A stretch of 64,000 nucleotides of DNA from Paenibacillus lupini (GTDB taxonomy: Bacteria > Bacillota > Bacilli > Paenibacillales > Paenibacillaceae), in assembly GCF_011761355.1 (NCBI RefSeq), contig NZ_JAASRW010000010.1, positions 1 to 64,000 on the forward strand, written 5' to 3'. Made by a program: the position numbers and the translations under genes. This document shows positions 29,175-60,522 of the stretch, piece after piece. Positions within the stretch are counted from its first letter, which is position 1; every line of letters begins with the position of its first letter. Below the pieces are notes generated by a model, which saw only the letters and a list, made by a program, of their open reading frames with translations, made no database searches and was not told the origin of the DNA.

Positions 29175-29188
29175 TGTAAGCGATTGCA
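29175..29188 (+). promoter_or_regulatory. CcpA catabolite-response-like site before the YesM kinase
   Basis: TGTAAGCGATTGCA matches the cre consensus TGWNANCGNTNWCA at all fixed positions but one. It lies just before the kinase gene, so glucose repression of the two-component genes is plausible. Confidence 0.45.
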
Positions 29189-29216
29189 TTTTATCTCCGC
29201 AAAGGAGTTGTCCGAA

Positions 29217-32677: not shown

Positions 32678-32737
32678 ATAGTCATATAAGTGTAACTCGG
32701 CGATACCGGCTGTATTTTATAATCGAGTAACACCGGT

Positions 32738-32751
32738 GGTAAACGCTTACA
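32738..32751 (+). promoter_or_regulatory. CcpA catabolite-response-like site before the importer operon
   Basis: GGTAAACGCTTACA matches the cre consensus with a single mismatch in the first base. It is 38 bases before the binding-protein start, the usual place for catabolite repression of a sugar operon. It also lies within a CACCGG...CCGGTG repeat (32731-32761). Confidence 0.6.
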
Positions 32752-32788
32752 AGAGCCGGTGAATTGAAGGTCTGGAGGGTATATACAC

Positions 32789-34387
32789 ATGCGAAAAACA
32801 TGGGGGAGATATGCTTTCGCCACGATGCTTGTTAGCGGATTAATCGTATCCGGCTGCAGCAACGGAGGCAACGGCAACAGTAATGATAAAGGCAGTAATA
32901 CGGGGGATTCCAAATCGACGGGTTCGGCGGAGAATGCGGTAAAAACGGAAGGTTTTCCGATCGTTGATGCGCCAATCAAGCTGAAGATGTTTACCCGCGT
33001 CGCACCCGTAAACGGTCCGTTCAAGGACATGCCCGTCTTCCAGGATTACGAGAAGATGAGCAATATCAAGGTCGATTTTATAGAAGCGCCGACCGATGGC
33101 TTTGCGGAGAAGAAAAACCTCTTGTTCGCATCTAATGAGCTTCCCGATGCGTTGTACCGTTCGGGTCTGACGCAGCTGGAGACGGTCCGCTACGGAGCTG
33201 CGGGACAGCTGATCCCGCTCGAGAATCTGATTGATCAATACGCACCGAACCTGAAGAGCCTTATGGAGCAATATCCGGAAATCCGCGCGGGCATCACAAC
33301 GCCGGAGGGACATATTTATGCGATTCCGGGCATTGTGACGCTAGGCTCCGCGCGGACCGACAAGAGATGGATCAACAAGGCATGGCTGGATAAGCTGGGC
33401 CTGAAGGTGCCTGAGACGACCGACGAATTGTATGAAGTGCTTAAAGCTTTCCGCGACGGCGATCCGAACGGCAATGGGAAAGCGGACGAACTTCCGATGA
33501 CTGCGCGTATCGGCATGCCAATCGTTTATCAAATGGCGGGAGCATTTGGACTTGATTCCCAGCTTGGCTACAACATTAATGTCGAGAGCGACAAGGTGCA
33601 TATCTGGAGCGGCGACGAGCAGTACAAAGAGCTGCTCATGTATTTGAACAAGCTTTATAAGGAGAAGCTGATTGACCCGGAAATCTTCTCTCACACGGAA
33701 GCGCAATATCTTGCTAAGCAAGGAACTGGCAATACAGGCTACTTCTTTGATCAGACGAACAATAACTTCCTGACCATTCAGGATCAGTATGTAGGCATTG
33801 CCCCGCAGGCAGGTCCTAATGGCGACCGCCTGCATAGCCAGATCGCTCCGGTGCCGCGCGACTATGGAGCATTCGCCATCACGTCAGTCAACAAATATCC
33901 GGAAGCGACCATGCGCTGGATCGACTACTTCTACAGCGATGAAGGCTCAACTCTGCTGCGTTTTGGCCGGGAAGGCGAGCACTATGATCTGAAGGACGGC
34001 ATCCCTTACTACAAAGAGGAGCTTCTGTCCGTAGCGGGCGAACAAGCGAAAATTACGCCATACGCCGGCGGCGGAGCGCCTCATATTATCAGTGATAAAG
34101 TAGCTTCGTTCATCAACCCGCCTCAAGTACAAGAGGCTTATGAGCAGCTCGAGCCGTATTTGCCGAAAATCCGCTATGCACCGCCGTTATTTGACGAAGA
34201 GACAGCTCAGAAGGTTAACGTGCTGCGTAATGACATCGATAAGTATTTCGAAGAACAAAGTACGAAGTTCATCGTTGGGGCGCTCAGCTTCGACAAGTGG
34301 GACGAATTCCAGTCCACGCTGAAGAAAATGAACATTGCCGATCTTGAGAAGCTTTACCAGGATGCTTATGACAAAATGGCCAAATAA
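32789..34387 (+). CDS. Extracellular solute-binding lipoprotein of an oligosaccharide ABC importer, cluster 1
   Basis: 532 residues. Lipoprotein signal with lipobox V-S-G-C at about residue 23, then an Asn/Gly/Ser-rich spacer (about 24-48) and a family 1 (LplA-type) binding domain. The segment D-G-D-P-N-G-N-G-K-A-D-E (near residue 225) is the calcium-binding loop typical of this group. It captures a glycan outside the cell and hands it to the two permeases that follow at 34421 and 35398. Confidence 0.92.
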   Translation: MRKTWGRYAFATMLVSGLIVSGCSNGGNGNSNDKGSNTGDSKSTGSAENAVKTEGFPIVDAPIKLKMFTRVAPVNGPFKDMPVFQDYEKMSNIKVDFIEAPTDGFAEKKNLLFASNELPDALYRSGLTQLETVRYGAAGQLIPLENLIDQYAPNLKSLMEQYPEIRAGITTPEGHIYAIPGIVTLGSARTDKRWINKAWLDKLGLKVPETTDELYEVLKAFRDGDPNGNGKADELPMTARIGMPIVYQMAGAFGLDSQLGYNINVESDKVHIWSGDEQYKELLMYLNKLYKEKLIDPEIFSHTEAQYLAKQGTGNTGYFFDQTNNNFLTIQDQYVGIAPQAGPNGDRLHSQIAPVPRDYGAFAITSVNKYPEATMRWIDYFYSDEGSTLLRFGREGEHYDLKDGIPYYKEELLSVAGEQAKITPYAGGGAPHIISDKVASFINPPQVQEAYEQLEPYLPKIRYAPPLFDEETAQKVNVLRNDIDKYFEEQSTKFIVGALSFDKWDEFQSTLKKMNIADLEKLYQDAYDKMAK

Positions 34388-34420
34388 ATGTGATGCCGCG
34401 AAGAGAGGGAGGGGCTGCTC

Positions 34421-35383
34421 ATGGACAGCATGATAGAGAACGCGGGGGCCGCCCCCGTTCCTGGCCGCAAGAAGCGGAGCGACGGACTGCTGAGAAAAAT
34501 GGCGAAGCGGTATGATTTGTATCTCATGCTGCTGCCGCCGCTCGCTTTCTATTTGATCTTCCATTACGGGCCGCTGTACGGCCTGCAGATCGCTTTCAAA
34601 AACTTCAATCCGGCCAAAGGCATTATCGGCAGCCCATGGGAAGGCTTTGGCCATTTCGAACGGTTTTTTAACTCGTACTACTTCTGGCGGCTGCTGTGGA
34701 ATACCGTATCGATCAACTTGTTCTCGCTCCTAATTGCATTCCCGGTTCCAATCCTGCTGGCGTTGCTCGTGAACGAAATCAAGAGCCGGGCTTACAGCAA
34801 ATGGCTGCAAAATATTACGTACATTCCGCATTTTATCTCGGTCGTTGTTATCGTCGGCATTCTGAACGTATTTCTGTCGCCGAAGACGGGACCAATCAAT
34901 CAACTGATTGAAGCGTTTGGCGGCACGCCGATTAATTTCCTGCAGGAAGCCGCCTGGTTCAAACCGATCTTTATCGGCTCGAACATTTGGCAGAGCATGG
35001 GATGGCAATCCATTATCTATATCGCCGCGCTCAGCGGGGTTAATCCCCAGCTGTATGAGGCGGCTAAGATGGACGGCGCTTCACGGCTCCGCCGTATCTG
35101 GCACGTATCGCTGCCTGGCATTATGCCGGTTATCGTCATCTTGCTCATTCTCGATATCGGCCACTTCATGAACATTGGCTTCGAGAAAATTTTGCTCATG
35201 CAGAACAACCTGAATCTGGAATCCAGCGACGTCATCTCCACGTTCGTCTATACGACGGGAATCTTGAAGGGCGAGTACAGCTACACGGCAGCCATCGGCC
35301 TGTTCAACTCGGTGATCAATCTCATGCTGCTGCTGCTCGTAAACCGTTTTGCCCGCAAGACGTCGGAGACGAGCTTATGGTAA
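34421..35383 (+). CDS. ABC importer permease, LplB type, cluster 1
   Basis: 320 residues, six transmembrane helices. The EAA loop that contacts the ATPase is present as Y-E-A-A-K-M-D-G-A-S-R-L-R-R-I near residue 212. A typical LplB start appears at Y-D-L-Y-L-M-L-L-P-P. Ribosome site GGGAGGGG. No ATPase gene is in the operon; such importers use a shared MsmX/MsmK-type ATPase encoded elsewhere. Confidence 0.93.
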   Translation: MDSMIENAGAAPVPGRKKRSDGLLRKMAKRYDLYLMLLPPLAFYLIFHYGPLYGLQIAFKNFNPAKGIIGSPWEGFGHFERFFNSYYFWRLLWNTVSINLFSLLIAFPVPILLALLVNEIKSRAYSKWLQNITYIPHFISVVVIVGILNVFLSPKTGPINQLIEAFGGTPINFLQEAAWFKPIFIGSNIWQSMGWQSIIYIAALSGVNPQLYEAAKMDGASRLRRIWHVSLPGIMPVIVILLILDIGHFMNIGFEKILLMQNNLNLESSDVISTFVYTTGILKGEYSYTAAIGLFNSVINLMLLLLVNRFARKTSETSLW

Positions 35384-35397
35384 GGAGGTAATCGCTT

Positions 35398-36285
35398 ATG
35401 GAAAAGAGCATAAGTCCGTCGAATGAACGTTTGTTCGACGCCATTGTATATGTCATAGCCGCCATTATTATGGTCATTGTGTTGTATCCGCTGCTGTTCA
35501 TTGTCAGCGCGTCGTTCAGCGACCCGGCCAAAGTACTAAACGGTGATGTGTGGCTGCTGCCGCAAGGTCTCAATGTCGAGGCTTACGCTAACATTTTGCA
35601 GAATGACAAGATCTGGACCGGCTACGGCAACTCGATTATGTATACCGTCATTGGAACTGTTATTAACATCATCATGACGATCCTCGCGGCGTATCCGCTG
35701 TCGAGACCCGATCTGCCCTTGCGCAACGGAATCATGGTCATGATTACGATGACGATGTTTTTCAGCGGAGGACTTATTCCAAGTTATTTGCTGGTCAAAG
35801 ACCTTGGCATGGTAGACACCATGTGGGCGCTGATCGTGCCGGGCGCTATCGCGACGTACAATCTTATCGTTATGCGTACGTATTTTCAAAATAGTATCCC
35901 TTGGGAGCTGCAGGAGGCGGCCCATATGGACGGCTGCTCCAACTGGAGACTGCTCGTTAGCATCATCCTGCCGCTCTCAAAACCGATTCTTGCCGTCATG
36001 GTGCTGTTCTACGCGGTTGGCCACTGGAACTCGTTCTTTAATGCGCTTATCTATATTCGCGACGAAGGCAAATATCCACTTCAGCTTGTACTTCGCGAAA
36101 TATTGCTGATCAGTCAATCCGCCCAAACGGATGGAGGAAGCGTTGGGCTGGAGAAACAAATCCTGCTGTCCGAAAGCATTAAATTCGCGGTCATTATCGT
36201 GTCCAGCCTGCCCGTGCTGATCATGTATCCCCTTGTGCAGCGGCATTTCGTCAAAGGCGTCATGATTGGTTCCGTTAAAGGATAA
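35398..36285 (+). CDS. ABC importer permease, LplC type, cluster 1
   Basis: 295 residues, six transmembrane helices, with the EAA loop Q-E-A-A-H-M-D-G-C-S-N-W near residue 185 and the C-terminal G-V-M-I-G-S-V-K-G typical of LplC/YtcP proteins. A perfect TAAGGAGGT precedes ATG 35398. Partner of the LplB-type permease 14 bases upstream. The glycosidase genes follow without a terminator. Confidence 0.93.
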   Translation: MEKSISPSNERLFDAIVYVIAAIIMVIVLYPLLFIVSASFSDPAKVLNGDVWLLPQGLNVEAYANILQNDKIWTGYGNSIMYTVIGTVINIIMTILAAYPLSRPDLPLRNGIMVMITMTMFFSGGLIPSYLLVKDLGMVDTMWALIVPGAIATYNLIVMRTYFQNSIPWELQEAAHMDGCSNWRLLVSIILPLSKPILAVMVLFYAVGHWNSFFNALIYIRDEGKYPLQLVLREILLISQSAQTDGGSVGLEKQILLSESIKFAVIIVSSLPVLIMYPLVQRHFVKGVMIGSVKG

Positions 36286-45637: not shown

Positions 45638-45691
45638 TATTAATCGTAAGTTAGTAAAGAAAATCATAACTTCTTCCGCTTTCACACTATT

Positions 45692-45705
45692 TGAAAGCGC
45701 TTTAA
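45692..45705 (+). promoter_or_regulatory. CcpA catabolite-response-like site before the secreted GH43 gene
   Basis: TGAAAGCGCTTTAA fits the cre consensus with one mismatch (second last C replaced by A). It lies about 80 bases before the gene start, consistent with glucose repression of a secreted hydrolase. Confidence 0.6.
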
Positions 45706-45782
45706 AATATACAACGACTACAACAGAAAGGAGGAGTTAGAGGAAGGAGTATGTACCAATATCGTAAAGAGAGGTGCTAGGA

Positions 45783-47306
45783 ATGAAGATGAAGTTGAAA
45801 TGGTTGGCCACTTTGCAAAGCTTGATATTGTTCGCCGCTGTTGCGTTATCCTTTGGCGCACAGACAGCAAGTGCGGCGGCTAAGACGATTAATAATGATG
45901 TATTCTGGAAGGATACCTCAGGCAATCCAATCTACTCTCAAGGCGGGAATATTTTGAAAGTTGGCAGCACGTATTACTGGTACGGAGTCAAATATAATGG
46001 AGCGGTAACTTACTATAATAATCCGTCTTCCAAAAACAGCGACACAAGCTTCGCTGCTGTGACCTGCTATTCTTCTACTGACCTTGCCAACTGGACGTTC
46101 TGCGGCAATGTGATAACCGGTGCGACCGATGGCTCGACCTGGGATGCGGATTGGCTGGGGCGCCTTGGGGTTGTGTACAACACAAATACGCAGAAATATG
46201 TGCTGATCACGCAGTATGCGGGTCCAGCCGGAAGCGGGATTGCCTTTGCAACAAGCAGCACGCCAACCGGAACCTTCACCTTTGATCATGTTCAAACCTC
46301 AATTACGAATGTAGTAAACAACATGTCAGGCGACCAGTCCACCTTCGTCGACGATGACGGGAAGGCTTATCTTATATTCAGTAATGCCAGCGGAAGAAGT
46401 CATCTTTATGTCTCTGAGCTTCGGGCATCAGATTATTTGAACGTCGAACCGGCGACTAACGTGTTCAACAGCAGCGCAGGCGGCCGTGAAGGGAATGCAA
46501 TGTTCAAATATAACGGTGTGTATTACTTATGCTCATCCGACCTGCATGGATGGAATGCTTCGCATACTTACTGTATCACTTCGACGAGCATTAAAGGCAC
46601 ATATGGCAGTGAGTTTGTCATGAATGGAACAGATGCAGACTTCTCGCATGTCTCGCAAACTTCCATGTTTATTAAAGTGCAAGGAACCTCACAGACCACG
46701 ATTCTATTCGGCGGTGACCGCTGGAGCGACTTCGCCGGCAACGGAATTGGTTATAATCAATGGATGCCGATCTCGTTCAGCGGTACGACACCAACCATGA
46801 ATTCTGTTAGCCAGTTTAATCTGGATGCGGCAACGGGAACCTGGAGTGTGGGCAGCGGAAACAACTATGCAAAGAATCCAAGCTATGAGGCGGACAGAGT
46901 ATCCCAGATCAGCCTGGCAGGATGGAGTACCTGGTTTAACGTCGCTGTAGATCCGAACTCCAATGTTGATGGCGGAGCCCATTCGGGAAGATGGTCGGGT
47001 AATCAATATGCCACGACTGCTTACAGCGCGAGTCGTTATCAGACGGTGACCGGTCTGCCGAACGGAACGTATACGCTGAAGGTATGGGTGAAGAGCAGCG
47101 GCGGGCAGACAACTGCCCAGATCTATGTCAAAAATTACGGTGGCTCCGAGCTGGATGCCGCTATTAATACGTCGATCAGCAGCTGGACACAGATAACGGT
47201 ACCTAATATTCAGGTGACAAACGGGCAAGCACAGATTGGCCTGTATTCGGTTGCTAATGCCGGCAACTGGGTGAGGGTAGATGACTGGTCATTGATTAAA
47301 AACTAA
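45783..47306 (+). CDS. Secreted GH43 hydrolase, exo-beta-1,3-galactanase-like, with C-terminal carbohydrate-binding domain
   Basis: 507 residues. Signal peptide 1-31 (A-Q-T-A-S-A cleavage region). The catalytic five-blade propeller spans about 35-355. The blade 1 motif is G-N-P-I-Y-S-Q-G-G-N-I-L-K-V-G-S-T-Y-Y-W, which lacks the D-P catalytic base of most GH43 and instead fits subfamily 24 galactan 1,3-beta-galactosidases. Glu236 in G-R-E-G-N-A-M-F is the likely acid. Residues 365-507 form a jelly-roll binding module (P-N-G-T-Y-T-L-K-V-W-V). ATG 45783 follows GAGG. The only clearly secreted enzyme in the region. Confidence 0.8.
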   Translation: MKMKLKWLATLQSLILFAAVALSFGAQTASAAAKTINNDVFWKDTSGNPIYSQGGNILKVGSTYYWYGVKYNGAVTYYNNPSSKNSDTSFAAVTCYSSTDLANWTFCGNVITGATDGSTWDADWLGRLGVVYNTNTQKYVLITQYAGPAGSGIAFATSSTPTGTFTFDHVQTSITNVVNNMSGDQSTFVDDDGKAYLIFSNASGRSHLYVSELRASDYLNVEPATNVFNSSAGGREGNAMFKYNGVYYLCSSDLHGWNASHTYCITSTSIKGTYGSEFVMNGTDADFSHVSQTSMFIKVQGTSQTTILFGGDRWSDFAGNGIGYNQWMPISFSGTTPTMNSVSQFNLDAATGTWSVGSGNNYAKNPSYEADRVSQISLAGWSTWFNVAVDPNSNVDGGAHSGRWSGNQYATTAYSASRYQTVTGLPNGTYTLKVWVKSSGGQTTAQIYVKNYGGSELDAAINTSISSWTQITVPNIQVTNGQAQIGLYSVANAGNWVRVDDWSLIKN

Positions 47307-47360: not shown

Positions 47361-47523
47361 CTATGCCGATACCAAGGAGGAATCATCTTCAAGAATCAAA
47401 GGTAATCATAGCTTTTTCCTGTATGCAGGCCACAATCTTCCTTCTATAATGAGGTGACGGAGTCGTGTCCACAATTAGCTAGTGTGAATCTTATCCGTTA
47501 CATCAGATTCAGGAGGGATTCTC

Positions 47524-49125
47524 TTGAAGTTATTAATTATTGACGACGAGACTCGGACAAGAGAATTATTGAAAAATTATATCCCTTGGGACACTGTTGG
47601 TATTGATGAAGTAGAAACGGCGCGCAACGGACTTCAGGCACTCGAGATTGCAATGGAACATAAGCCTGATATCATTTTGTGTGATATAAGAATGCCGAAG
47701 ATGAGCGGCATCGAATTCGCCAGCCAGTATCGGGAGACCGATCCTGATTGCCCGATTATTTTCCTCAGCGGCTTCTCCGATAAGGAGTATCTGAAATCAG
47801 CCATTCAACTGAAAGTATTTACATATATTGAGAAGCCCGTGAATTTGAACGAAGTACGTGATGTGGTGGAGTCCGCCATTCGGCTCCGCAAGGAAGAGCA
47901 AAAGCGCAAGGAGGAAGAACGGAAGCTCCAAGAAGGGTACGACCACAGTCTGCCTTATCTGAGACAAGAGATGGTGCGCCGGCTTGTATCTAACCCGGAG
48001 TCCCCCCATGTTATTCCTGCGCTGCGAAGCCGTGAAACGTTCCTGCTTCCAGCGGAAGGACCTTTTACGATAGCGGTCTCAAGCCTTTATTGGAGTCCTT
48101 TCAATCTCCCGGAAGATCCAGGTGTGACGCAATTAAGAATACTAGAAGCGATTTCGAGCTGTTATTATTTTAATGAAATGAAAGCGCTTGCTGGATTTGA
48201 TTCGCTCAATCATCTGGTGCTTATCTTGCCGGGTGAGTATGGCAGCACCTATCGAAAGGGCAGAGCAGAGATAGAGGATGTTTTCTCGGAGCTCCGTGTT
48301 ATTGCGGGACCAACCGTCGATATTCGAATCGGAATCGGGCAGACGGTATTCTCTCATAAGGAAATTCCGGAATCCTATCGAATGGCTTCACTTGCTTGTG
48401 CTTACCAATATTATAGCAGCGGATCAAAGCCGATTTTCTCTGATGCCCTTGATAGCCATGCCCCAGTTGTGACGAACTGGGAAGAGGTACGGATGATGCG
48501 TGATCAGCTGCGTAAAGGCCATGTAGATGAAGCCAAACGAATCGTGGGGGAATGGACGGCTTACGCACGTAAGCAGAGGGACCTTGATATTTTGCGTCTC
48601 AAAGATACCTATTTTCAATTCCTCATTGCGATTATGGAGACAGCTGTACAGCTTGGGCTGGCTGAGATTTCGAAAGATACCGAGAGGCGCTACATGTGGA
48701 AGGAGATCGACCGCATTCCAAGCCTGGAGGAGCTGGAACAATATGTGTTGTCGTTTCTTGATGCGATGGCCGAGCCAAGCGATGATGAGGCAGGAGCGGG
48801 AAGCGGTAAGATGAGGGAGATTATGCGTTATATCCATGCCCACTTTCATGAGAAAGGCTTTACGATCCGTGCGATAGCTGATCATGTTCAGCTAAGTGAA
48901 ACGTATCTATGCGCTTATTTCAAGAAGCATAGTCGGCAGACGATTAAGGAGTATATTACGGATACAAGGATGAACAAGGCGAAGGAGCTGCTGAGTGATC
49001 AGAATGTAAAAATGATTGAAGTGGCGCTTCTGATTGGCATGACTGATGCTAATTACTTCACCACCTTTTTCAAACGTAACGCAGGCTGCACTCCTTCCGA
49101 ATTCAGGGAGCGTGCCGCCCGATGA
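47524..49125 (+). CDS. YesN-type response regulator, cluster 2
   Basis: 533 residues from TTG 47524, seven bases after AGGAGGGA. Receiver domain with I-D-D-E-T and phospho-Asp in I-I-L-C-D-I-R-M-P-K; a central domain; AraC HTH at about 435-530 (I-R-A-I-A-D-H-V-Q-L-S-E-T-Y; M-I-E-V-A-L-L-I-G-M). Its stop overlaps the kinase start (ATGA). First gene of a regulator-kinase-binding protein operon. Expected to activate the transporter genes beginning at 52669. Confidence 0.92.
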   Translation: MKLLIIDDETRTRELLKNYIPWDTVGIDEVETARNGLQALEIAMEHKPDIILCDIRMPKMSGIEFASQYRETDPDCPIIFLSGFSDKEYLKSAIQLKVFTYIEKPVNLNEVRDVVESAIRLRKEEQKRKEEERKLQEGYDHSLPYLRQEMVRRLVSNPESPHVIPALRSRETFLLPAEGPFTIAVSSLYWSPFNLPEDPGVTQLRILEAISSCYYFNEMKALAGFDSLNHLVLILPGEYGSTYRKGRAEIEDVFSELRVIAGPTVDIRIGIGQTVFSHKEIPESYRMASLACAYQYYSSGSKPIFSDALDSHAPVVTNWEEVRMMRDQLRKGHVDEAKRIVGEWTAYARKQRDLDILRLKDTYFQFLIAIMETAVQLGLAEISKDTERRYMWKEIDRIPSLEELEQYVLSFLDAMAEPSDDEAGAGSGKMREIMRYIHAHFHEKGFTIRAIADHVQLSETYLCAYFKKHSRQTIKEYITDTRMNKAKELLSDQNVKMIEVALLIGMTDANYFTTFFKRNAGCTPSEFRERAAR

Positions 49126-50930
49126 GAAGAAGACTGAAACGACCAATCTTCTTAAGCATTCGGTATAAACTGTTTGCGACGTATGTTCTTGTCATTATGA
49201 TCCCGTTTCTGCTGCTATTGTTTATTCATATCAGCACCACGCAGCAAGAGAATAAAGAAGCGGCGGTCTATGCCTCACGCAAAATGCTGGATGAGACGAA
49301 GGCTTATCTCGAATATAAGTCGGAAGCGATTACGGAAGTGCTTAATTTTATCGCCTTTAACGAGCTTGTCCAGAAGGCAGTTGATGAGGATTCCAAGCCT
49401 TACGAGGACATTGACGTCTGGCATATGGCTTCGCTGCAGCTCTCAAGGCTTATTAATCAGTTCCGTTATAACGAAGATATTGATTCCATTCAGATCTATA
49501 TGAGACAAGGCTTAGCCGGCGCAACGGAAAATATTGATTTCCTGGATATGAAGAAAGTGGAATCGGAAGCTTGGTATACTCGGTTCTCCTCTGTTAACGC
49601 CTTTGTCGCATGGCTGCCTTCCACTGCCATAACGCCCGGTGCTGACAGCCGGGAATTAACTATCCTGCGTAAAATTCCGAATGAACATGATATTCAGCAA
49701 TTTGATGGTATTGTCCGAGCCCGCGTAAAGCCTGCAGCGATGGAGTCTGTTCTTAACCATGCTATCCTGACTCCGAATGCAGCTGCGTTCCTGTTCAATG
49801 ATGAAGGAGAGCTGCTTGGCAAATCCGACCGGTTCTCTTATTCGGATGAGCTTGTGAAGGAAGTAAGCGAGCTGTACCTCGATTCCGACGAAGTGGACAA
49901 CTATTATAACAATAATTATCCGATCGAAGGAAGCCGGCATTTGCTTGGTGTGCAGGCTATTCCTCATACGGATATGAAAGTTGCACTTGTGGTGCCTTAT
50001 ACCGATATATTGCAATCCAGCGTCAAAGCGAGAAACCGGATAATATCGATCTTCCTAATCGTTGTGCCCTTTATGCTGCCTTTCTCTTTCTTCGTAGCTG
50101 CTTCGGCGACAAAGCGGATTCGAAGGCTGATTGTTCATGTGCGGAAGGTGAAGCATGGACATTTCCAGCTTGCTCCTCTGCCGGCGAATGATGATGAGAT
50201 CGGTGAGCTGACCCATAACTTCAATACGATGGTTCAGAACATATCTGGTCTAATCGAAGAGAAGTCGTCGCTTGGGCGCGAGGTTAAAAATAAAGAATTG
50301 AAGGCGCTCCAGGCGCAGATCAACCCTCATTTTCTGTACAATACACTTGATCTGATCAATGCGATGGCGATTGAATCCAATGCGGGCGATATTAAGCGGG
50401 TCGTAGACGAGCTTGCTGTTTTCTACAAATTAAGCTTGTCGAACGGCAAGGAATATGTCTCGCTGGAGAGCGAGCTGAAGCATATTGAAGCGTATGTTCG
50501 AATCCAGAATATGCGCTTTGGTGACAGCGTCAGATTAGAGTTTGAGGTTTCAAGAGATCTATACGACTGCCAGCTGCCCAAGATTCTGCTCCAGCCGCTT
50601 GTTGAGAATGCAATTCTGCACGGCATTATGGAGAAGGACAGTGAAGAAGGAGAGATCAGGATTGCAGCCTGGACCGATAAGGGTGATCTTCTGATTAAAG
50701 TGACTGATGATGGAGTAGGCATGTCTGCCGAGCAGCTTAGTACGATCCTGCAAGCCCCTTCAGTGGAGGGTGACAGGGGAGGTTATGGCGTCCGTAATAT
50801 TGAAGAGCGGCTGCAGCTGTCTTATGGTCTTCAATACGGCCTGAGGTTCGACAGCTCAGAGGGAGAAGGAACCAGCGTTTTGCTGCGGCTGCCCGAACGA
50901 AGACTGGATGAACGGGGGAGAGCGCAATGA
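49122..50930 (+). CDS. YesM-type sensor histidine kinase, cluster 2
   Basis: 602 residues. Transmembrane segments near 15-33 and 305-328 bracket an extracellular sensor of about 270 residues; HAMP follows, then Q-I-N-P-H-F-L-Y-N-T-L with the phospho-His and an ATPase domain (V-E-N-A-I-L-H-G; D-D-G-V-G-M). It overlaps the regulator upstream and the binding-protein gene downstream by ATGA junctions, so all three are made together. The external domain may contact the coupled binding protein. Confidence 0.92.
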   Translation: MRRRLKRPIFLSIRYKLFATYVLVIMIPFLLLLFIHISTTQQENKEAAVYASRKMLDETKAYLEYKSEAITEVLNFIAFNELVQKAVDEDSKPYEDIDVWHMASLQLSRLINQFRYNEDIDSIQIYMRQGLAGATENIDFLDMKKVESEAWYTRFSSVNAFVAWLPSTAITPGADSRELTILRKIPNEHDIQQFDGIVRARVKPAAMESVLNHAILTPNAAAFLFNDEGELLGKSDRFSYSDELVKEVSELYLDSDEVDNYYNNNYPIEGSRHLLGVQAIPHTDMKVALVVPYTDILQSSVKARNRIISIFLIVVPFMLPFSFFVAASATKRIRRLIVHVRKVKHGHFQLAPLPANDDEIGELTHNFNTMVQNISGLIEEKSSLGREVKNKELKALQAQINPHFLYNTLDLINAMAIESNAGDIKRVVDELAVFYKLSLSNGKEYVSLESELKHIEAYVRIQNMRFGDSVRLEFEVSRDLYDCQLPKILLQPLVENAILHGIMEKDSEEGEIRIAAWTDKGDLLIKVTDDGVGMSAEQLSTILQAPSVEGDRGGYGVRNIEERLQLSYGLQYGLRFDSSEGEGTSVLLRLPERRLDERGRAQ

Positions 50931-52495
50931 GACGGGGAATAAAAGGACAGTTATGGCTGGGTACGGCTCTGCTGTCCGTACTTCTCGTGCTTGGATTGAC
51001 AGCTTGCACTGGTAATGGGGATGAACAAGAAGCAGCTAACCCAGGTCCTGGTCACGAGAAGGAAGTGAAGCTTGTAGGTTATCTGCTTGGAGAGGCACCG
51101 AAGGGCATTCAGCAAGTACTGCAGGCGATTAACGAGAAGCTGAAGAAAGATATCAATGCAAAGATTGAGCTTAATTACATAGCGTGGAATGACGTCGCTT
51201 CGAAGTACCCGCTTGTTCTTGCAAGCGGCCAGGATGTTGATTTTATTTTTGCAGCGGACTGGAACTTCTATGTATCTGAGGCTACAAAGGGGGCATTCTA
51301 TCCGCTTAGTCAATCCTTGCTGGAGCAATACATGCCGAGGCATATGGAGGCTATGGCGCCCGAAGCGCTCCGTGCAGCCGACGTAAATGGAACACCTTAT
51401 ATGATTCCGACCTCCTCTCCCGATCGTAAGGTGAATATTGCCTTATTCCGTAAGGATGTGATGGATAAGGCAGGCATGACGCAAATTACAAAGTTCTCGG
51501 AGATTGAGCCGTACCTCGCTGAGATAAAGCGCAGTTATCCAGGCATGATTCCTCTCAACCTTGATTCCCAATATGATCTTCCAACCCCGTTTACTTATTT
51601 GCTGATGGAGAAATTTGCCTGGTTTAGTGCTCCATTCGATTCAGGTGATCCGCTTGCTCAAGGAATAACAGCGGATATGGAGGACCCGGAGGGTGTCATG
51701 TACAGCATGACAGAGGAGCCGATCCTGAGCTGGCAGAAGGAAGTCGCTTATATAATGAAGGACTGGTATGACAAGGGATATATGAATAAAAACCCGTATG
51801 CCAACAGCATTCGTTCCAAGGACAATTTCTGCAACGGCAAATCGGGTATCGCATTCGGCAATTCCATCGATATGATGAATGTTTTTATGTCCTGCAAGGA
51901 GCAGGGCATTGATGTATATCCATTTCCGATGGTGTATCCGTCCGGGAAAGCCACGAAGGCAAGTTGGCTGAACAATGGTGTAGCAATATCCGCTTCCTCC
52001 AAAAATCCGGAGCGTGCCATGGAGGCTCTTGATCTGCTTATGGAGGATCCCTCCTACGCGTATCTGGCTTATTATGGCATCGAAGGGATCAACTATACCA
52101 TTACGCCTGACGATAGGATTGGCTTGCCAGAAGGAGTTACGTCCGAGTCGAATACATATCCTCCTGATGCTGCCGGCTTCTGGTTTGTGAATAAGAACCT
52201 CTTTAAACCGGTTGCCAATTGGACGGATCCCTATAAGGCTTTGCAGGAGCGGGTTCAGCCGCTGCTCGAGCCGACCCCTTTACTTGGATTCCTGTTTAAT
52301 TCTGATCAAGTGAAGTCGGAGATTGCCAATCTGAAAAGTGTATCCACACAATATGCGCAGCCGATCTATATCGGGGCGGTTGATAATGTGGAGGCTGCTT
52401 TTGACACGTTGGTACAGCATATGAAGAAGGCTGGAATTGATAAGGTTAAGGCGGAAGTACAGAAGCAAGCGGCTGATTATCTTGCAAATCAATAA
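50927..52495 (+). CDS. Solute-binding lipoprotein coupled to the sensor kinase (SBP-1)
   Basis: 522 residues with lipobox L-T-A-C at about residue 26. Family 1 binding domain with E-V-K-L-V-G-Y-L-L-G-E-A-P-K-G near the start and D-A-A-G-F-W-F-V near 405. The start ATGA overlaps the kinase stop, and a terminator directly follows, so it belongs to the regulatory operon and not to the permease operon. A close paralogue (SBP-2, 54589) sits with the permeases. SBP-1 is therefore a candidate ligand-presenting partner of the kinase; a normal transport role cannot be excluded. Confidence 0.9.
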   Translation: MRRGIKGQLWLGTALLSVLLVLGLTACTGNGDEQEAANPGPGHEKEVKLVGYLLGEAPKGIQQVLQAINEKLKKDINAKIELNYIAWNDVASKYPLVLASGQDVDFIFAADWNFYVSEATKGAFYPLSQSLLEQYMPRHMEAMAPEALRAADVNGTPYMIPTSSPDRKVNIALFRKDVMDKAGMTQITKFSEIEPYLAEIKRSYPGMIPLNLDSQYDLPTPFTYLLMEKFAWFSAPFDSGDPLAQGITADMEDPEGVMYSMTEEPILSWQKEVAYIMKDWYDKGYMNKNPYANSIRSKDNFCNGKSGIAFGNSIDMMNVFMSCKEQGIDVYPFPMVYPSGKATKASWLNNGVAISASSKNPERAMEALDLLMEDPSYAYLAYYGIEGINYTITPDDRIGLPEGVTSESNTYPPDAAGFWFVNKNLFKPVANWTDPYKALQERVQPLLEPTPLLGFLFNSDQVKSEIANLKSVSTQYAQPIYIGAVDNVEAAFDTLVQHMKKAGIDKVKAEVQKQAADYLANQ

Positions 52496-52506
52496 TTAGA
52501 TTGAGG

Positions 52507-52545
52507 AAGCCTGTCCGGGCGGTAATGCCGGGTGGGCTTTTTTTT
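52507..52545 (+). terminator. Terminator separating the sensor operon from the permease operon
   Basis: AAGCC-GTCCGG pairs with CCGG-TGGGCTT and is followed by eight T residues. It splits the two binding-protein genes into separate units. Confidence 0.85.
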
Positions 52546-52668
52546 ATAAGTGCCGGTAGATGTGATTTTCAAAGATGATCGTAAGTTTACCCCGTGTGAG
52601 GCGGAATGCACTTTCGGTAACATAGAAGCAGATAGAGATTGCTGGAGAGAATGCTATGGAGGTTGCAC

Positions 52669-53571
52669 ATGAAGGATATTCGAAAAAATTGGCTGTTGTA
52701 TCTGATGTTTGTACCCGTTGCTGTTTATTATGTTGTATTCGCTTACATTCCGATGGGCGGTATTGTTATGGCGTTCGAATCCTATTCCAGGCATGGTGGC
52801 ATGTTCTTAAGTGAATGGGTTGGATTGGATAACTTTCATTACTTTTTCGCTTCGGGGAAGGCTTGGCTTGTGACTCGCAATACGATGGTATATAACGTTA
52901 TATTCCTAGGCTGCTACACCGTGTTCTCCATCGTTGCTGCCGTTTTCTTATCCGAGATCCGCCGCAAGTCGTTCAAGAAGCTGAGCCAAACACTGATGTT
53001 CCTCCCTTATTTTATATCCTGGGTTACCGTATCGGCGTTTGTCTATAACTTCCTTAATTATGAGTATGGCATTGTAAACAAGGTTCTTCATTTTCTCGAT
53101 ATACAGGCACTTGATATTTATTCCAACACGAGCTATTGGTACTTCCTGCTGCCGTTCCTGTATGTGTGGAAGTGGGTGGGCTACGGAAGCATTTTATACC
53201 TGGCTGCCATTGTGGGCATTGACCAGGAAATATATGAGGCGGCAACCATTGACGGGGCTACCCGGCTCCAGCGCATTATGCAGATTACACTGCCTCTGCT
53301 AAAGCCAACGATGGTCATTTTGATTCTACTGGGTCTAGGCCGGATTATGAGAGGCGAGTTCGATATGTTCTATCAGTTAATCGGTAATAACGGCTTGTTA
53401 ATGGATGCCACAGACATTATCGACACGCTTGCTTTCCGCTCTTTGATGGGGTCTGCAGACTTCGGTATGGCGTCTTCGGTTGGTCTGTACCAATCCGTGC
53501 TGACGCTGATTATTATCTTGGCAGCCAACTGGCTTGTCCGCAGATATGACAAGGAACAAGCCTTGTTCTAA
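52669..53571 (+). CDS. ABC importer permease, LplB type, cluster 2
   Basis: About 300 residues from ATG 52669, six bases after GGAGG; the frame extends back to TTG 52639 without a ribosome site. Six transmembrane helices, EAA loop Y-E-A-A-T-I-D-G-A-T-R-L-Q-R near residue 193. First gene of the transport operon. No ATPase gene accompanies it. Confidence 0.92.
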   Translation: MKDIRKNWLLYLMFVPVAVYYVVFAYIPMGGIVMAFESYSRHGGMFLSEWVGLDNFHYFFASGKAWLVTRNTMVYNVIFLGCYTVFSIVAAVFLSEIRRKSFKKLSQTLMFLPYFISWVTVSAFVYNFLNYEYGIVNKVLHFLDIQALDIYSNTSYWYFLLPFLYVWKWVGYGSILYLAAIVGIDQEIYEAATIDGATRLQRIMQITLPLLKPTMVILILLGLGRIMRGEFDMFYQLIGNNGLLMDATDIIDTLAFRSLMGSADFGMASSVGLYQSVLTLIIILAANWLVRRYDKEQALF

Positions 53572-53617
53572 AATCTGCAGCCTTTATTCAACTTAAGTGA
53601 GAAAGCAGGGTGTTAAC

Positions 53618-54514
53618 ATGAGCAGTCAAGCTTCTACAGGAAAGCTGAATTCCGCTCCTATCTTTACAACGATATCGTATACGGTCGTCTCCATTATCGC
53701 GCTGATCTGCCTGCTGCCCTTTATTGTTCTGCTGGCCGGTGCATTCTCTTCGGAAAGCTCTGTGCTGAGTGATGGATATTGGTTCTGGCCGAAAGACTTT
53801 TCAACAGAAGCGTTCCGGTATATTTTCCGCTACCCCGGGGATGTTCTCTCCGCTTATAAGGTTTCGGTTATCGTGACCGTTGTTGGTACAGTTATATCGC
53901 TCTTCATCTCGACGATGGCAGCGTACGTCCTCGGGAGGAAGGAGCTTGCGCATCGCAACAAGCTGGCGTTCTTTCTTTTCTTCACAACGCTGTTTAATGG
54001 CGGTCTTGCACCCTATTATATTTGGCTCAGCCGCAATCTTCATCTGACCAACACTTATGCCGTGCTCATTCTGGGGCCGATGTTCAACGTGATGTACATT
54101 CTGATTCTTCGAAGCTTTATCAAAAGCTCCGTTCCTGAACCGCTTATTGAATCCGCGAGGATTGACGGAGCGGGGGAGATGAGGATTTTCTTGCAGATGA
54201 TTCTTCCGCTTAGTAAGCCGGCGCTTGCCTCTATCGGAGTGTTTACTGCCTTGGCTTATTGGAATGACTGGTGGACAGCCATGATGTTCACCACGAAGGA
54301 TTCTATGATTCCGCTGCAATATTTGCTGTATAAGATGTTGTCTTCAATTAATCTCTCGTCGGCTATGGCCCAGCATGTGACAAGCCTGGATGCTCCGAAG
54401 GAGACATTTAAGCTAGCGATGACAGTCATCGCAACAGGCCCTATATTGCTTGTCTTCCCGTTCGCTCAGAAATATTTCGTAAGTGGTGTCACGATTGGTG
54501 CTGTAAAAGGGTGA
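53618..54514 (+). CDS. ABC importer permease, LplC type, cluster 2
   Basis: About 298 residues from ATG 53618. Six transmembrane helices, EAA-type loop I-E-S-A-R-I-D-G-A-G-E near residue 187, and the C-terminal G-V-T-I-G-A-V-K-G end. Partner of the preceding permease. A GTG at 53597 is in frame, but CAGGGTG before the ATG is the better ribosome site. Confidence 0.92.
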   Translation: MSSQASTGKLNSAPIFTTISYTVVSIIALICLLPFIVLLAGAFSSESSVLSDGYWFWPKDFSTEAFRYIFRYPGDVLSAYKVSVIVTVVGTVISLFISTMAAYVLGRKELAHRNKLAFFLFFTTLFNGGLAPYYIWLSRNLHLTNTYAVLILGPMFNVMYILILRSFIKSSVPEPLIESARIDGAGEMRIFLQMILPLSKPALASIGVFTALAYWNDWWTAMMFTTKDSMIPLQYLLYKMLSSINLSSAMAQHVTSLDAPKETFKLAMTVIATGPILLVFPFAQKYFVSGVTIGAVKG

Positions 54515-54588
54515 TATAGATTCCGATCTGATCTCGGAGTATATATAGATGATGTAATTGCTTGGCCACTATAAGGGGAGGGATTCAC

Positions 54589-56226
54589 TTGAAAAGAAAT
54601 ACAAAAAGCCTATTTACTATGCTGGCATTGATCGCAATGATTGCGCTTCTAATCACAGCCTGCAGCAACAACAACAATAATAATAGTAATACAGCAGCAT
54701 CTTCCAATGCCTCAACGGAGCCTTCGGCTTCACCATCTGCTGACAGCACTGAGCCGACAGCCACAGATACCGGTAATGACCACTCGGAGGAGATAAAGCT
54801 TGTTGGTTATTTACTTGGCGAAGCGCCAAAGGGTATGCCGGATGTGATGACGGCACTTAATGAGAAGCTGAAGAAGGACATTAACGCAACTCTAGAAATT
54901 AACTATATTGGATGGGGAGACATCGCTTCCAAATATCCTCTTATTCTAGCGTCCGGTGAAGATGTCGACTTCGTCTTCACGGCGGACTGGAACTTCTATG
55001 TGCCTGAAGCGAACAAGGGCTCTTTCAAAGAATTGACTCAGGATATGTTCCAGAAATACATGCCGAAGTACACGGCAAAGCAAGACCCGGCTGCTTATAA
55101 AGCAGCTCAAGTTAACGGCAAGCAGTACATGATCCCAACAACAACGCCAGACCGCAAAGTAAACGTCATTGTCCTTCGCAAAGACGTAATGGAGAAGGCT
55201 GGTTTAACTAATCCGACTAAGATCTCGGAACTTGAGCCTTACTTCGCTGAGGTCAAGAAAGATTATCCGAACATGATTCCGCTTAATCTGGATTCCCAGT
55301 ATGACTTACCTACGCCATTTGGGGCTTTGGTATCAGAGAAGTTCGCTTACGCTGGTGCTCCGATTGATTCCGGTGACCCTTCCGGTATTGGCAACTATAC
55401 GGATCAGGAAGATCCATCCGGCAAAATCCTAAGCATTACGGATGAGCCCGTTCAAGGCGCGTTCAAATACGCAGCAGGCATTATGAAGCAGTGGTATGAT
55501 GCAGGGTATGTTAACAAGAATCCCTATTCCAACAAGATCCGCTCGAAAGATAACTTCTGCGATGGCAAATCAGGTGTAGCGTTTGGCAACTCGATTGATA
55601 TTCAAGCGACACTGTCGTCCTGCCAAGACAAGAATATCGAGACTTACATTATGCCGGTTCTGTCACCAACAGGCCATGCACCGTCCAATAGTTGGCTGAA
55701 CAACGGTATTGCAATCGCTGCTAACTCCAAACATCCGGAGCGGGCGATGGAAGCACTTGATCTGATCATGGAAGATCCTACTTACGTATTTAACGCTTAT
55801 TACGGTATCGAAGGTAAAAACTATGTTATTACGGCCGATGATAAGCTGGCTCTGCCCGACGGTGTAACTGCTGAAACCAACACATATCCGCCGGATGCCG
55901 CAGGCTTTTGGTTCGTTGATAAGGATAACTTCAAGCCAAGCGTTAGCTGGACGGATTCCTACATTGAATTAAATAACAAGATTAAAGATTTCTTGCAGCC
56001 TGTTACTTATCTTGGCTTTACATTTAACACGGATAACGTGAAGACAGAAATCGCGAACTTGAAGAACGTATCCACGCAGTACTTTATGCCACTTGCTATT
56101 GGAGCTGTTAAGGATGTCGATAAACAGTTTGATTCGCTCAATTCCAAGATGAATGCAGCTGGTATTGCTAAAGTGAAGAGCGAGCTTGAAACACAGGCAA
56201 CTGCGTTCCTAGCTGCTAAGGGTTGA
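54589..56226 (+). CDS. Solute-binding lipoprotein of the cluster 2 importer (SBP-2)
   Basis: About 545 residues from TTG 54589, seven bases after GGGGAGGG. Lipobox I-T-A-C at about residue 24, then an Asn/Ser/Thr-rich spacer to about 65. From E-I-K-L-V-G-Y-L-L-G-E-A-P-K-G onward it aligns with SBP-1 without large gaps; well over half of the positions look identical by eye. The spacer is much longer than in SBP-1, fitting a free-reaching transport receptor. Terminator follows. Confidence 0.92.
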   Translation: MKRNTKSLFTMLALIAMIALLITACSNNNNNNSNTAASSNASTEPSASPSADSTEPTATDTGNDHSEEIKLVGYLLGEAPKGMPDVMTALNEKLKKDINATLEINYIGWGDIASKYPLILASGEDVDFVFTADWNFYVPEANKGSFKELTQDMFQKYMPKYTAKQDPAAYKAAQVNGKQYMIPTTTPDRKVNVIVLRKDVMEKAGLTNPTKISELEPYFAEVKKDYPNMIPLNLDSQYDLPTPFGALVSEKFAYAGAPIDSGDPSGIGNYTDQEDPSGKILSITDEPVQGAFKYAAGIMKQWYDAGYVNKNPYSNKIRSKDNFCDGKSGVAFGNSIDIQATLSSCQDKNIETYIMPVLSPTGHAPSNSWLNNGIAIAANSKHPERAMEALDLIMEDPTYVFNAYYGIEGKNYVITADDKLALPDGVTAETNTYPPDAAGFWFVDKDNFKPSVSWTDSYIELNNKIKDFLQPVTYLGFTFNTDNVKTEIANLKNVSTQYFMPLAIGAVKDVDKQFDSLNSKMNAAGIAKVKSELETQATAFLAAKG

Positions 56227-56253: not shown

Positions 56254-56296
56254 AACAAGCCGGTCAGATGCTGCATCTGACCGGCTTGTTATTTTA
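56254..56296 (+). terminator. Terminator of the cluster 2 transport operon
   Basis: AACAAGCCGGTCAGATGC pairs perfectly with GCATCTGACCGGCTTGTT; a T-rich tract follows. Confidence 0.9.
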
Positions 56297-58517: not shown

Positions 58518-59498
58518 ATGGAATATGTGAAGCTTGGCCATACAGGCTTGGATGTATCGAGGTTGTGTCTTGGATGTATGGGCTTTGGGAACGCAGAGCG
58601 TTCCTTTCACCAATGGGTTCTCAATGAAGAAGGCAGTCGTCCGGTTATAAAAAAAGCACTGGAGCTTGGAATCAATTTCTTTGATACGGCTAACGTCTAT
58701 GCGGATGGAACAAGTGAGGAAATTGTTGGACTTGCACTCAAAGAATATGCCAATCGAGATGAGATCGTCCTCGCAACAAAGATTCATGGGCGCATGCATG
58801 AAGGTCCTAATGGCGCCGGACTTTCACGGAAAGCGATTATGAGCGAGATAGATAAGAGCTTGAAACGTCTAAAAACCGATTATGTAGATCTGTACCAGAT
58901 TCATCGCTGGGATTACCATACGCCAATCGAAGAGACGATGGAAGCCTTGCATGATGTGGTGAAAGCCGGAAAGGCAAGATACATCGGTGCTTCCGCTATG
59001 TATGCGTGGCAGTTCCAGAAGGCCCTTCATGTTGCAGAGCGGAATGGATGGACTAGGTTCGTATCGATGCAAAATCACTTAAACCTCATCTACCGTGAAG
59101 AAGAACGAGAGATGCTGCCGCTCTGCCGGGAAGAAAAAATCGGCGTTATTCCGTACAGTCCGCTTGCTGGAGGACGATTAACAAGAGATCCGAAGGATAC
59201 GACGCATCGTTCTGAAACAGATCAGATTGCGAAACAGAAATACGATGCAACAGCAGAGACTGATCGATTAATCATAGATCAAGTTGCAGCGATCGCGGAA
59301 CAACGCGGCGTTTCCCGTGTTCAGATTGCACTTGCCTGGCTGCTGCAGAAAGAACCGGTGACTGCGCCTATTGTTGGTGCGACGAAACTCTCTCATCTTG
59401 AGGACGCAGCAGCAGCGCTGGATATTAAGTTAACACATGAGGAAATTACTTCACTTGAAGCACCATATGTCCCTCACAGAGTTGTCGGTCATCAATAA
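58518..59498 (+). CDS. yajO: Aldo/keto reductase, YajO-like
   Basis: About 326 residues, an NADP-dependent aldo/keto reductase barrel. The N-terminus L-G-H-T-G-L-D-V-S-R-L-C-L-G-C-M, the catalytic Asp/Tyr region F-F-D-T-A-N-V-Y-A-D-G, and Q-I-H-R-W-D-Y-H-T-P-I-E-E-T follow E. coli YajO closely along the whole length, including the final P-H-R-V-V-G. YajO has been linked to 1-deoxyxylulose 5-phosphate formation; the physiological substrate here is open. ATG 58518 is eight bases after GAGG and downstream of a MerR-type promoter. Confidence 0.87.
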   Translation: MEYVKLGHTGLDVSRLCLGCMGFGNAERSFHQWVLNEEGSRPVIKKALELGINFFDTANVYADGTSEEIVGLALKEYANRDEIVLATKIHGRMHEGPNGAGLSRKAIMSEIDKSLKRLKTDYVDLYQIHRWDYHTPIEETMEALHDVVKAGKARYIGASAMYAWQFQKALHVAERNGWTRFVSMQNHLNLIYREEEREMLPLCREEKIGVIPYSPLAGGRLTRDPKDTTHRSETDQIAKQKYDATAETDRLIIDQVAAIAEQRGVSRVQIALAWLLQKEPVTAPIVGATKLSHLEDAAAALDIKLTHEEITSLEAPYVPHRVVGHQ

Positions 59499-59583
59499 GA
59501 TAGCGTTTTCCTCACTTCTTCTACTAAAAGGATTCTATTATAATAGAATAAATATGGTAAATAGAAGTGGGGGCAACATACAA

Positions 59584-60522
59584 ATGGCAAGTGAGAAGGT
59601 CAGCTACTCAAATCCCTGGATTGTAAATCGCGCAGATCCCTATGTGCTTAAGCACACGGATGGATTCTACTATTTCACAGCTTCCGTACCTGAGTATGAC
59701 CGAATTGTTTTGCGGAAGGCAGCTACGCTTGAAGGGCTTGTTGAGGCGGAGGAAGCAGTGATCTGGCGTAAGCATGAAGTCGGAGAGATGGGAAACCATA
59801 TCTGGGCGCCGGAGATTCATCACATCGGTGGCAAATGGTATATCTATTTCGCGGCGGGGACGGCTGAGGATCAATGGGCGATTCGGCCTTATGTTCTGGA
59901 GTGTGCTGATGAAGATCCGATATCAGGCACGTGGGTTGAAAAAGGCAAAATCGCACTCGACTTCGAGAGCTTCTCGCTTGATGCTACGACTTTCAATCAT
60001 CGTGGGGAGCAGTATCTGATCTGGGCACAATATAAAGAATCAGACAGCAATTTATACATAGCCAAACTGGTCAACCCATGGACGATTGCCGGTCCTCAAG
60101 TTCTGATAGCAACGCCTCAATATGATTGGGAGATTCAGGGTCATCGGGTAAATGAAGGGCCAGCTGTATTGATGCGTAATGGCCGGATTTTTGTTGCTTT
60201 TTCAGCAAGTGCGACCGATCACCGGTATTGTAAGGGTTTGCTGGAAGCTGCTGCTGATGCTGACTTGCTTGATCCGAATTCGTGGACAAAGCATCCTCAG
60301 CCTGTATTTGAGACTAATGAGGAGACCTCTAACTATGGTCCAGGACATAACTGCTTTACGGTGAGTGAAGATGGCTCTACCGACCTGATCGTCTATCACG
60401 CCCGTCCTTATAAAGAACTTATAGGAAGTGCTCTGTCGGATCCAAACCGTCATGCTCGTGTGCAAGCATTCACATGGAATGAAGATGGAACGCCTTATTT
60501 TGGGACTCCGGGAAAAGTATAA
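59584..60522 (+). CDS. GH43 exo-alpha-L-arabinofuranosidase (subfamily 26-like), intracellular
   Basis: About 312 residues, no signal peptide. All three GH43 catalytic carboxylates are visible: Asp18 in N-R-A-D-P-Y, Asp133 in S-L-D-A-T-T-F and Glu191 in V-N-E-G-P-A-V. The blocks F-T-A-S-V-P-E-Y-D-R-I and S-A-S-A-T-D-H-R-Y-C closely resemble exo-alpha-1,5-L-arabinofuranosidases such as the Streptomyces avermitilis GH43 enzyme. ATG 59584 follows GTGGGGGC; ATG 59554 is in frame. It would shorten imported linear arabino-oligosaccharides. Single gene with a terminator behind it. Confidence 0.87.
   Translation: MASEKVSYSNPWIVNRADPYVLKHTDGFYYFTASVPEYDRIVLRKAATLEGLVEAEEAVIWRKHEVGEMGNHIWAPEIHHIGGKWYIYFAAGTAEDQWAIRPYVLECADEDPISGTWVEKGKIALDFESFSLDATTFNHRGEQYLIWAQYKESDSNLYIAKLVNPWTIAGPQVLIATPQYDWEIQGHRVNEGPAVLMRNGRIFVAFSASATDHRYCKGLLEAAADADLLDPNSWTKHPQPVFETNEETSNYGPGHNCFTVSEDGSTDLIVYHARPYKELIGSALSDPNRHARVQAFTWNEDGTPYFGTPGKV

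Follow-up and report, generated by a model that had tools for sequence, protein, structure and literature searches.

Paralogous solute-binding proteins in a probable sugar-sensing system and importer of Paenibacillus lupini

To our knowledge, few sugar systems in which sensing and carrying fall to separate solute-binding proteins (SBPs) have been examined experimentally. In the CuaDSR/CuaABC system of Ruminiclostridium cellulolyticum, which concerns cellobiose, CuaD binds the ectodomain of the kinase and CuaA does not (PMC10384115, PMC5663094). Loss of CuaD weakens signalling, CuaSR alone is still cellobiose-responsive, and CuaD and CuaA are not discussed as close paralogues (PMC10384115). Two-SBP systems are also cited for Clostridium beijerinckii, where XylFII-LytS-YesN and XylFGH comprise a sensor SBP, kinase and regulator that control a sugar importer with its own SBP (PMC10384115, PMC13068155), and for Geobacillus stearothermophilus (PMC10384115). 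In the latter, an arabinose system, a sensor SBP, kinase and regulator likewise control an importer with its own SBP.

Here we describe a locus within a 64,000-nucleotide stretch of Paenibacillus lupini DNA (the window) in which two closely related SBP genes lie on either side of a pair of permease genes, one of them behind a YesM-type kinase. Comparative sequence analysis leads us to consider it probable that this is a three-component sugar-sensing system together with its importer, with SBP-1 as the sensor and SBP-2 as the carrier.

Organization of the locus in P. lupini and in related genomes

The features of the locus are listed in Table 1. The regulator and kinase genes, and the kinase and SBP-1 genes, are joined by ATGA overlaps (49122–49125 and 50927–50930), and a terminator separates SBP-1 from the permease-permease-SBP-2 genes, an arrangement already recognized in the original prediction. 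The segment from 52503 to 52543 folds at −22.1 kcal/mol (z −3.5), and the stem and T-run are kept in five relatives; a simple terminator scan makes no call at the 3′ end of SBP-1, though folding finds the terminator there. The likely starts of permease 1, permease 2 and SBP-2 (52669, 53618 and a TTG at 54589) differ slightly from those of the longest open reading frames. Pfam matches identify both a kinase with an extracytoplasmic domain and an AraC-type regulator, the dCache_1 match in the kinase scoring 50.4 bits against a cut-off of 45. SBP-1 combines an SBP_bac_1-type fold with a C-terminal DUF3502 (NgtS-like) domain, and a second SBP, SBP-2, is encoded alongside the permeases.

Table 1. 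Genes, operator sites and terminators of the P. lupini locus (coordinates are those of the window)
Feature	Coordinates	Strand	Basis or remarks
Operator site (weaker) before GH43 gene; −10 TAAAAT at 45703–45708	45654–45678	+	PWM 14.2 bits
Secreted GH43 enzyme, C-terminal CBM61-like domain	45774–47306	+	Pfam GH43; PDB matches
Operator site before regulator operon; −10 TATAAT at 47445–47450	47396–47420	+	
YesN-type response regulator, receiver and AraC HTH, TTG start	47524–49125	+	Pfam Response_reg, HTH_18/AraC
YesM-type histidine kinase, dCache ectodomain and HAMP	49122–50930	+	Pfam dCache_1, HAMP, His_kinase, HATPase_c
SBP-1, kinase-linked solute-binding lipoprotein, proposed sensor	50927–52495	+	Pfam SBP_bac_1, DUF3502
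Intrinsic terminator 3′ of SBP-1	52503–52548	+	Fold z −3.5; kept in five relatives
Operator site before permease operon; −10 TAACAT at 52618–52623	52569–52593	+	0 mismatches
ABC permease 1, sugar type	52669–53571	+	Pfam BPD_transp_1; start set from orthologues
ABC permease 2	53618–54514	+	Pfam BPD_transp_1; start set from orthologues
SBP-2, transport solute-binding lipoprotein, proposed carrier	54589–56226	+	Pfam DUF3502; TTG start
Terminator 3′ of SBP-2	56254–56290	+	17-pair stem

Two other parts of the window contain genes of similar types. Another YesM/YesN unit with an SBP and permeases is located at 29184–36285, adjoining arabinofuranosidase-like and GH2 genes, and its SBP has no close relationship to SBP-1. 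At 59437–60522, an arabinofuranosidase-like GH43 open reading frame overlaps an aldo/keto reductase gene, and its true start is probably further in.

We searched 396 genomes of the family for relatives of SBP-1 and 51 genomes of the genus for kinase orthologues (50–92% identical), and mapped 20-kb stretches around the matches. There are several features of note. First, members of the SBP-1 clade are present in 14 genomes belonging to four genus groups, and the predicted order of regulator, kinase and SBP with a second SBP is found among them; the two SBPs never swap places. SBP-1, which in the window is tied to the kinase and regulator by the gene overlaps, adjoins the kinase in 13 of the 14 genomes, including those with a relocated regulator gene, and SBP-2 follows permease 2 in all 14. 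Because the arrangement is kept in relatives, chance can be excluded as the explanation of the layout. Second, the order seen in the window, regulator-kinase-SBP-1-permease 1-permease 2-SBP-2, recurs in five genomes (G009, G011, G027, G352 and G348), the GH43 gene sits between SBP-1 and permease 1 in three (G270, G294 and G215), and the regulator is relocated behind SBP-2 in another three (G017, G021 and G025). Third, in G287 the locus is divided between two sites 3.4 Mb apart (L075 and L076), with regulator-kinase-SBP-1 at 3.89 Mb and GH43-permeases-SBP-2 at 0.45 Mb. In all 14 SBP-1 genomes the kinase is accompanied by SBP-1 and the permeases by SBP-2. Fourth, no SBP-1 was found in any of the 396 family genomes that is without its kinase, and in G299 the GH43, permease and SBP-2 genes remain and the kinase and SBP-1 are both absent. 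Cohnella fermenti (G058) was considered as a case of SBP-1 without a kinase and rejected, the kinase being located upstream of one giant gene (a 3246-codon open frame in L014; L014/L073) that lies between it and SBP-1.

Elsewhere the commonest arrangement is regulator-kinase-permease 1-permease 2-SBP, with one SBP only; many relatives (e.g. L080–L083, L086 and L088) share the kinase (roughly 50–62% identical), the regulator and the operator and possess just one SBP. Several distant relatives (L092, L094, L102, L104 and L107–L109) have tandem SBPs after the permeases, and G282 (L099) encodes a nearly identical pair of SBPs: the gene of one immediately follows the kinase and has an operator-like site, and that of the other follows the permeases.

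Operator sites, the predicted regulon and the likely ligand

Alignment of the promoter regions of six genomes exposes a common element located before both the regulator and permease 1. It matches the window at 47396 and 52569 (expectation 0.01), and there are no matches elsewhere in the 6.67-Mb genome when permitting up to three mismatches. A matrix built from the six genomes was applied with a threshold of 13 bits, which 0.5% of shuffled sequences reach, and a site of at least 13 bits is present before permease 1 in 29 of 31 loci outside the training set; in the remaining two (G108 and G247; L084 and L089) the SBP is the first gene and a site precedes it. A −10 hexamer lies 49 nt after the start of the site in 50 of 61 promoters. 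The combined operator and −10 pattern, with no more than one mismatch, has only three matches in the 6.67-Mb genome, before the GH43 gene (45657), the regulator (47399) and permease 1 (52572); the GH43 copy, with one mismatch, is the third-best in the genome and its −10 lies at the same 49-nt offset. These three best matches thus tie the transcripts into one predicted regulon. In G287 the only two perfect matches in the genome precede permease 1 at the transport locus and SBP-1 at the sensor locus. The operator and −10 geometry common to the regulator and permease promoters predicts that the importer operon is under the control of the regulator, and with the −10 at 49 nt a GTATG/GTGTG block occupies the −35 position, which would fit an activator that replaces the −35.

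The GH43 enzyme is nearest to exo-beta-1,3-galactanases (PDB 3vsf, 7bys, 6eug and 5flw), and its C-terminus matches 2xom, a domain from an arabinogalactan endo-galactosidase. The loci of relatives also carry glycosidase genes: in G025 the kinase has as its neighbour a gene for a large GH53 protein that carries an operator-like site, and other loci have GH35 or GH3 genes. The most likely ligand, in our view, would be an oligosaccharide of beta-galactan or arabinogalactan.

Divergence and origin of SBP-1 and SBP-2

SBP-1 and SBP-2 are the close paralogues they were predicted to be, with 60% identity over 493 aa and no gaps, and since the next-closest SBP to SBP-1 in the same genome is only about 30% identical, they are each other's only close relatives there. 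The short spacer described for the lipid anchor of SBP-1 is real and conserved, with 22–24 residues between the lipobox Cys and the fold in 10 of 11 lipidated SBP-1 proteins; the corresponding tether is 40–56 residues in all 14 SBP-2 proteins and spans 22 to 58 residues in single-SBP carriers. In three SBP-1 proteins (L077, L078 and L079, from G270, G294 and G215) the lipobox Cys is lost and an N-terminal membrane helix appears to serve as anchor. Mean pairwise identity is 66% among SBP-1 proteins and 76% among SBP-2 proteins, and of the positions that do not vary among single-SBP genomes, 51 are variable in SBP-1 but fixed in SBP-2, compared with 14 showing the opposite pattern. In SBP-1 lineages there are substitutions at residues that all 31 carriers examined have in common, such as K294, K486, and G88 and D89 next to W87. 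SBP-1 is on these comparisons best read as the derived copy and SBP-2 as the more ancestral one. The suggested split of one ancestral protein into sensor and carrier would therefore not be a symmetrical division, SBP-2 having kept the ancestral constraint and SBP-1 having diverged.

The faster evolution of SBP-1 and its loss of carrier-invariant residues are also what would be expected of a decaying duplicate retained by chance. This is highly improbable given the dN/dS values of SBP-1 (0.04–0.07, with synonymous changes near saturation for some pairs), which indicate purifying selection; moreover, the reading frames are intact in 14 genomes and both the overlap and the linker length are conserved. 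The predicted fold of SBP-1 is confident (pLDDT 82); the model of the kinase ectodomain (mean pLDDT 57.8) is too low for use.

Rates of change provide a second view of the association. With permease distances removed, distances between kinase ectodomains correlate with those of SBP-1 (partial r 0.48, p 0.0004) and show no co-variation with those of SBP-2 (r −0.27). However, SBP-1 distances correlate as well with those of the regulator and of the cytoplasmic part of the kinase. The covariation thus points to shared evolution of the sensor module, and a rate common to the whole module, instead of contact, may be its source.

SBP-1 could instead be a second carrier for the same permeases, differing in affinity or in the ligands that it accepts, and its position after the kinase would then reflect co-regulation only. 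It retains the fold and the 81 residues invariant across all SBPs (including the aromatic W87, W112, Y115, F418 and W419), the tandem SBPs of distant relatives provide a parallel, and in G287 it has a perfect operator and promoter of its own. Nonetheless, we regard this as unlikely: rearrangement or splitting of the locus leaves SBP-1 together with the kinase rather than the permeases, it has lost residues invariant in every carrier, as well as the lipid anchor in three genomes, and its rates track the kinase rather than the permeases. A sensor role for SBP-1 is thus the reading that we prefer.

In the SBP tree, SBP-1 forms a single clade of 14 (support 100/100) and SBP-2 groups with carriers from several single-SBP genomes. 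The SBP-1-linked kinases, that of G058 being left out of the tree, fall in one clade of 15 rows (support 100/99), within which the G247 and G223 kinases are nested, yet without SBP-1. A topology confining the SBP-1/SBP-2 split to the two-SBP lineage is rejected (AU p 4e-5, with the caveat that the SBP-1 branches are long), and one in which single-SBP carriers and SBP-2 form a clade excluding SBP-1 is compatible with the data (p 0.24). With a duplication confined to the SBP-1 kinase clade rejected, the split seems to be older than some single-SBP lineages, notwithstanding some doubt arising from the long SBP-1 branches, and to have been followed by loss or transfer. The near-identity of the SBP pair of G282 suggests a separate duplication of this kind that happened very recently. 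The old SBP-1 case, the very recent G282 case, and intermediates such as those in which a membrane anchor has taken the place of the lipid anchor raise the possibility, which we put forward tentatively, that copying a transport SBP into a kinase operon is a recurrent route from two- to three-component sensors in the Paenibacillaceae. If so, these cases would give a natural series in which to watch a transport protein become a receptor subunit.

Proposed mechanism and comparison with described systems

In the mechanism that we propose, SBP-1, lipid-anchored on its short tether, would bind the oligosaccharide outside the cell and act on the dCache ectodomain of the YesM kinase, which would then phosphorylate the AraC-type regulator. 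The regulator is predicted to bind an operator of roughly 37 bp that overlies the −35 region and starts 49 nt from the −10 box, and so to turn on three transcripts: the GH43 galactanase, regulator-kinase-SBP-1 (giving positive feedback) and permease-permease-SBP-2, with SBP-2 acting as the carrier that feeds the permeases. In this scheme we infer the ligand, the contact between SBP-1 and the kinase, the direction of the signal and the binding of the regulator to its operator. The predicted division between sensor and carrier finds good comparative support, in the order of the genes, the split locus of G287 in which each SBP keeps its partners, the common operator, and the covariation of the kinase with SBP-1 only of the two SBPs; the original prediction as a whole is upheld in part, presentation of the ligand to the kinase standing as a proposal and the split not being symmetrical.

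The occurrence in relatives of this kinase and operator alongside a single SBP suggests that SBP-1 is probably an accessory that sharpens sensing and not an obligate receptor, and these relatives, together with the G247 and G223 kinases inside the SBP-1 kinase clade, indicate that the kinase can probably sense, and in relatives probably works, without it. Taken further, the kinase might sense the sugar directly through its dCache domain, for which the Pfam match is above the cut-off, and SBP-1 might be a dispensable booster or scavenger; CuaSR of R. cellulolyticum offers a model for such a response (PMC10384115). We think this improbable, and somewhat more so than a second carrier, because SBP-1, under purifying selection, has been kept together with the kinase across four genus groups, and in the genomes searched it was not found without that kinase. 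An accessory sensor therefore remains our preferred role for SBP-1.

Among solved structures, NgtS of Streptococcus pneumoniae (PDB 5swa, 5swb and 5suo; PMC5215778) is nearest to SBP-1 in both sequence and fold; it is an N-glycan carrier with about 23% identity. In our alignment the NgtS ligand residue Trp386 aligns with a proline in SBP-1, and Trp81 corresponds to W87.

XylFII, offered as precedent in the original prediction, is a PF13407-type protein for a monosaccharide. XylFII-LytS resembles the P. lupini system in having a sensor SBP with a kinase and regulator and an importer with its own SBP, but no Peripla_BP_4 (PF13407) domain was found in SBP-1 by Pfam; as SBP-1 is of the SBP_bac_1/DUF3502 type, the precedent stands as an analogous design and not as a homologue at the family level or an orthologue. 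The G. stearothermophilus system, presumably AraPST, compares by description in the same way, with a sensor SBP, kinase and regulator and a carbohydrate importer with its own SBP, and differs in SBP and sugar.

There are 65 YesM-type kinase matches in the 6.67-Mb P. lupini genome, and several of the other YesM units have a tightly linked SBP, PF13407 proteins among them. Five PF13407 SBPs beside or overlapping YesM kinases (L117:6940-7923, L120:9014-10012, L123:9286-10308, L141:1594-2574 and L115:6145-7158) have an apparent N-terminal membrane anchor and no lipobox, and are candidate XylFII-like sensors.

By analogy of design, CuaDSR is a closer precedent than XylFII. CuaDSR and CuaABC, like the system described here, comprise a kinase-linked sensor SBP (CuaD), a sensor kinase, an AraC-type regulator and a separate transport SBP (CuaA) with the permeases, and this precedent, together with the other SBP-linked YesM units of the genome, makes the design a known and common one. 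In CuaDSR the regulator switches on the importer operon, a step predicted here from the operator sites. Unlike in CuaDSR, the SBPs here are DUF3502 paralogues with 60% identity, the geometry of operator and promoter is mapped, and, judging from sequence, the ligand is probably a galactan oligosaccharide. What the locus appears to add to the known design is thus the paralogous origin of its SBPs, the range of states that relatives show, and its operator. For one of the roughly 65 YesM kinases it yields a regulon that can be tested and a probable class of substrate. Since the pair is close, relatives keep single-SBP, two-SBP and split-locus states, and the operator is mapped, the locus is well suited to asking what residues direct a binding protein to a kinase instead of a permease.
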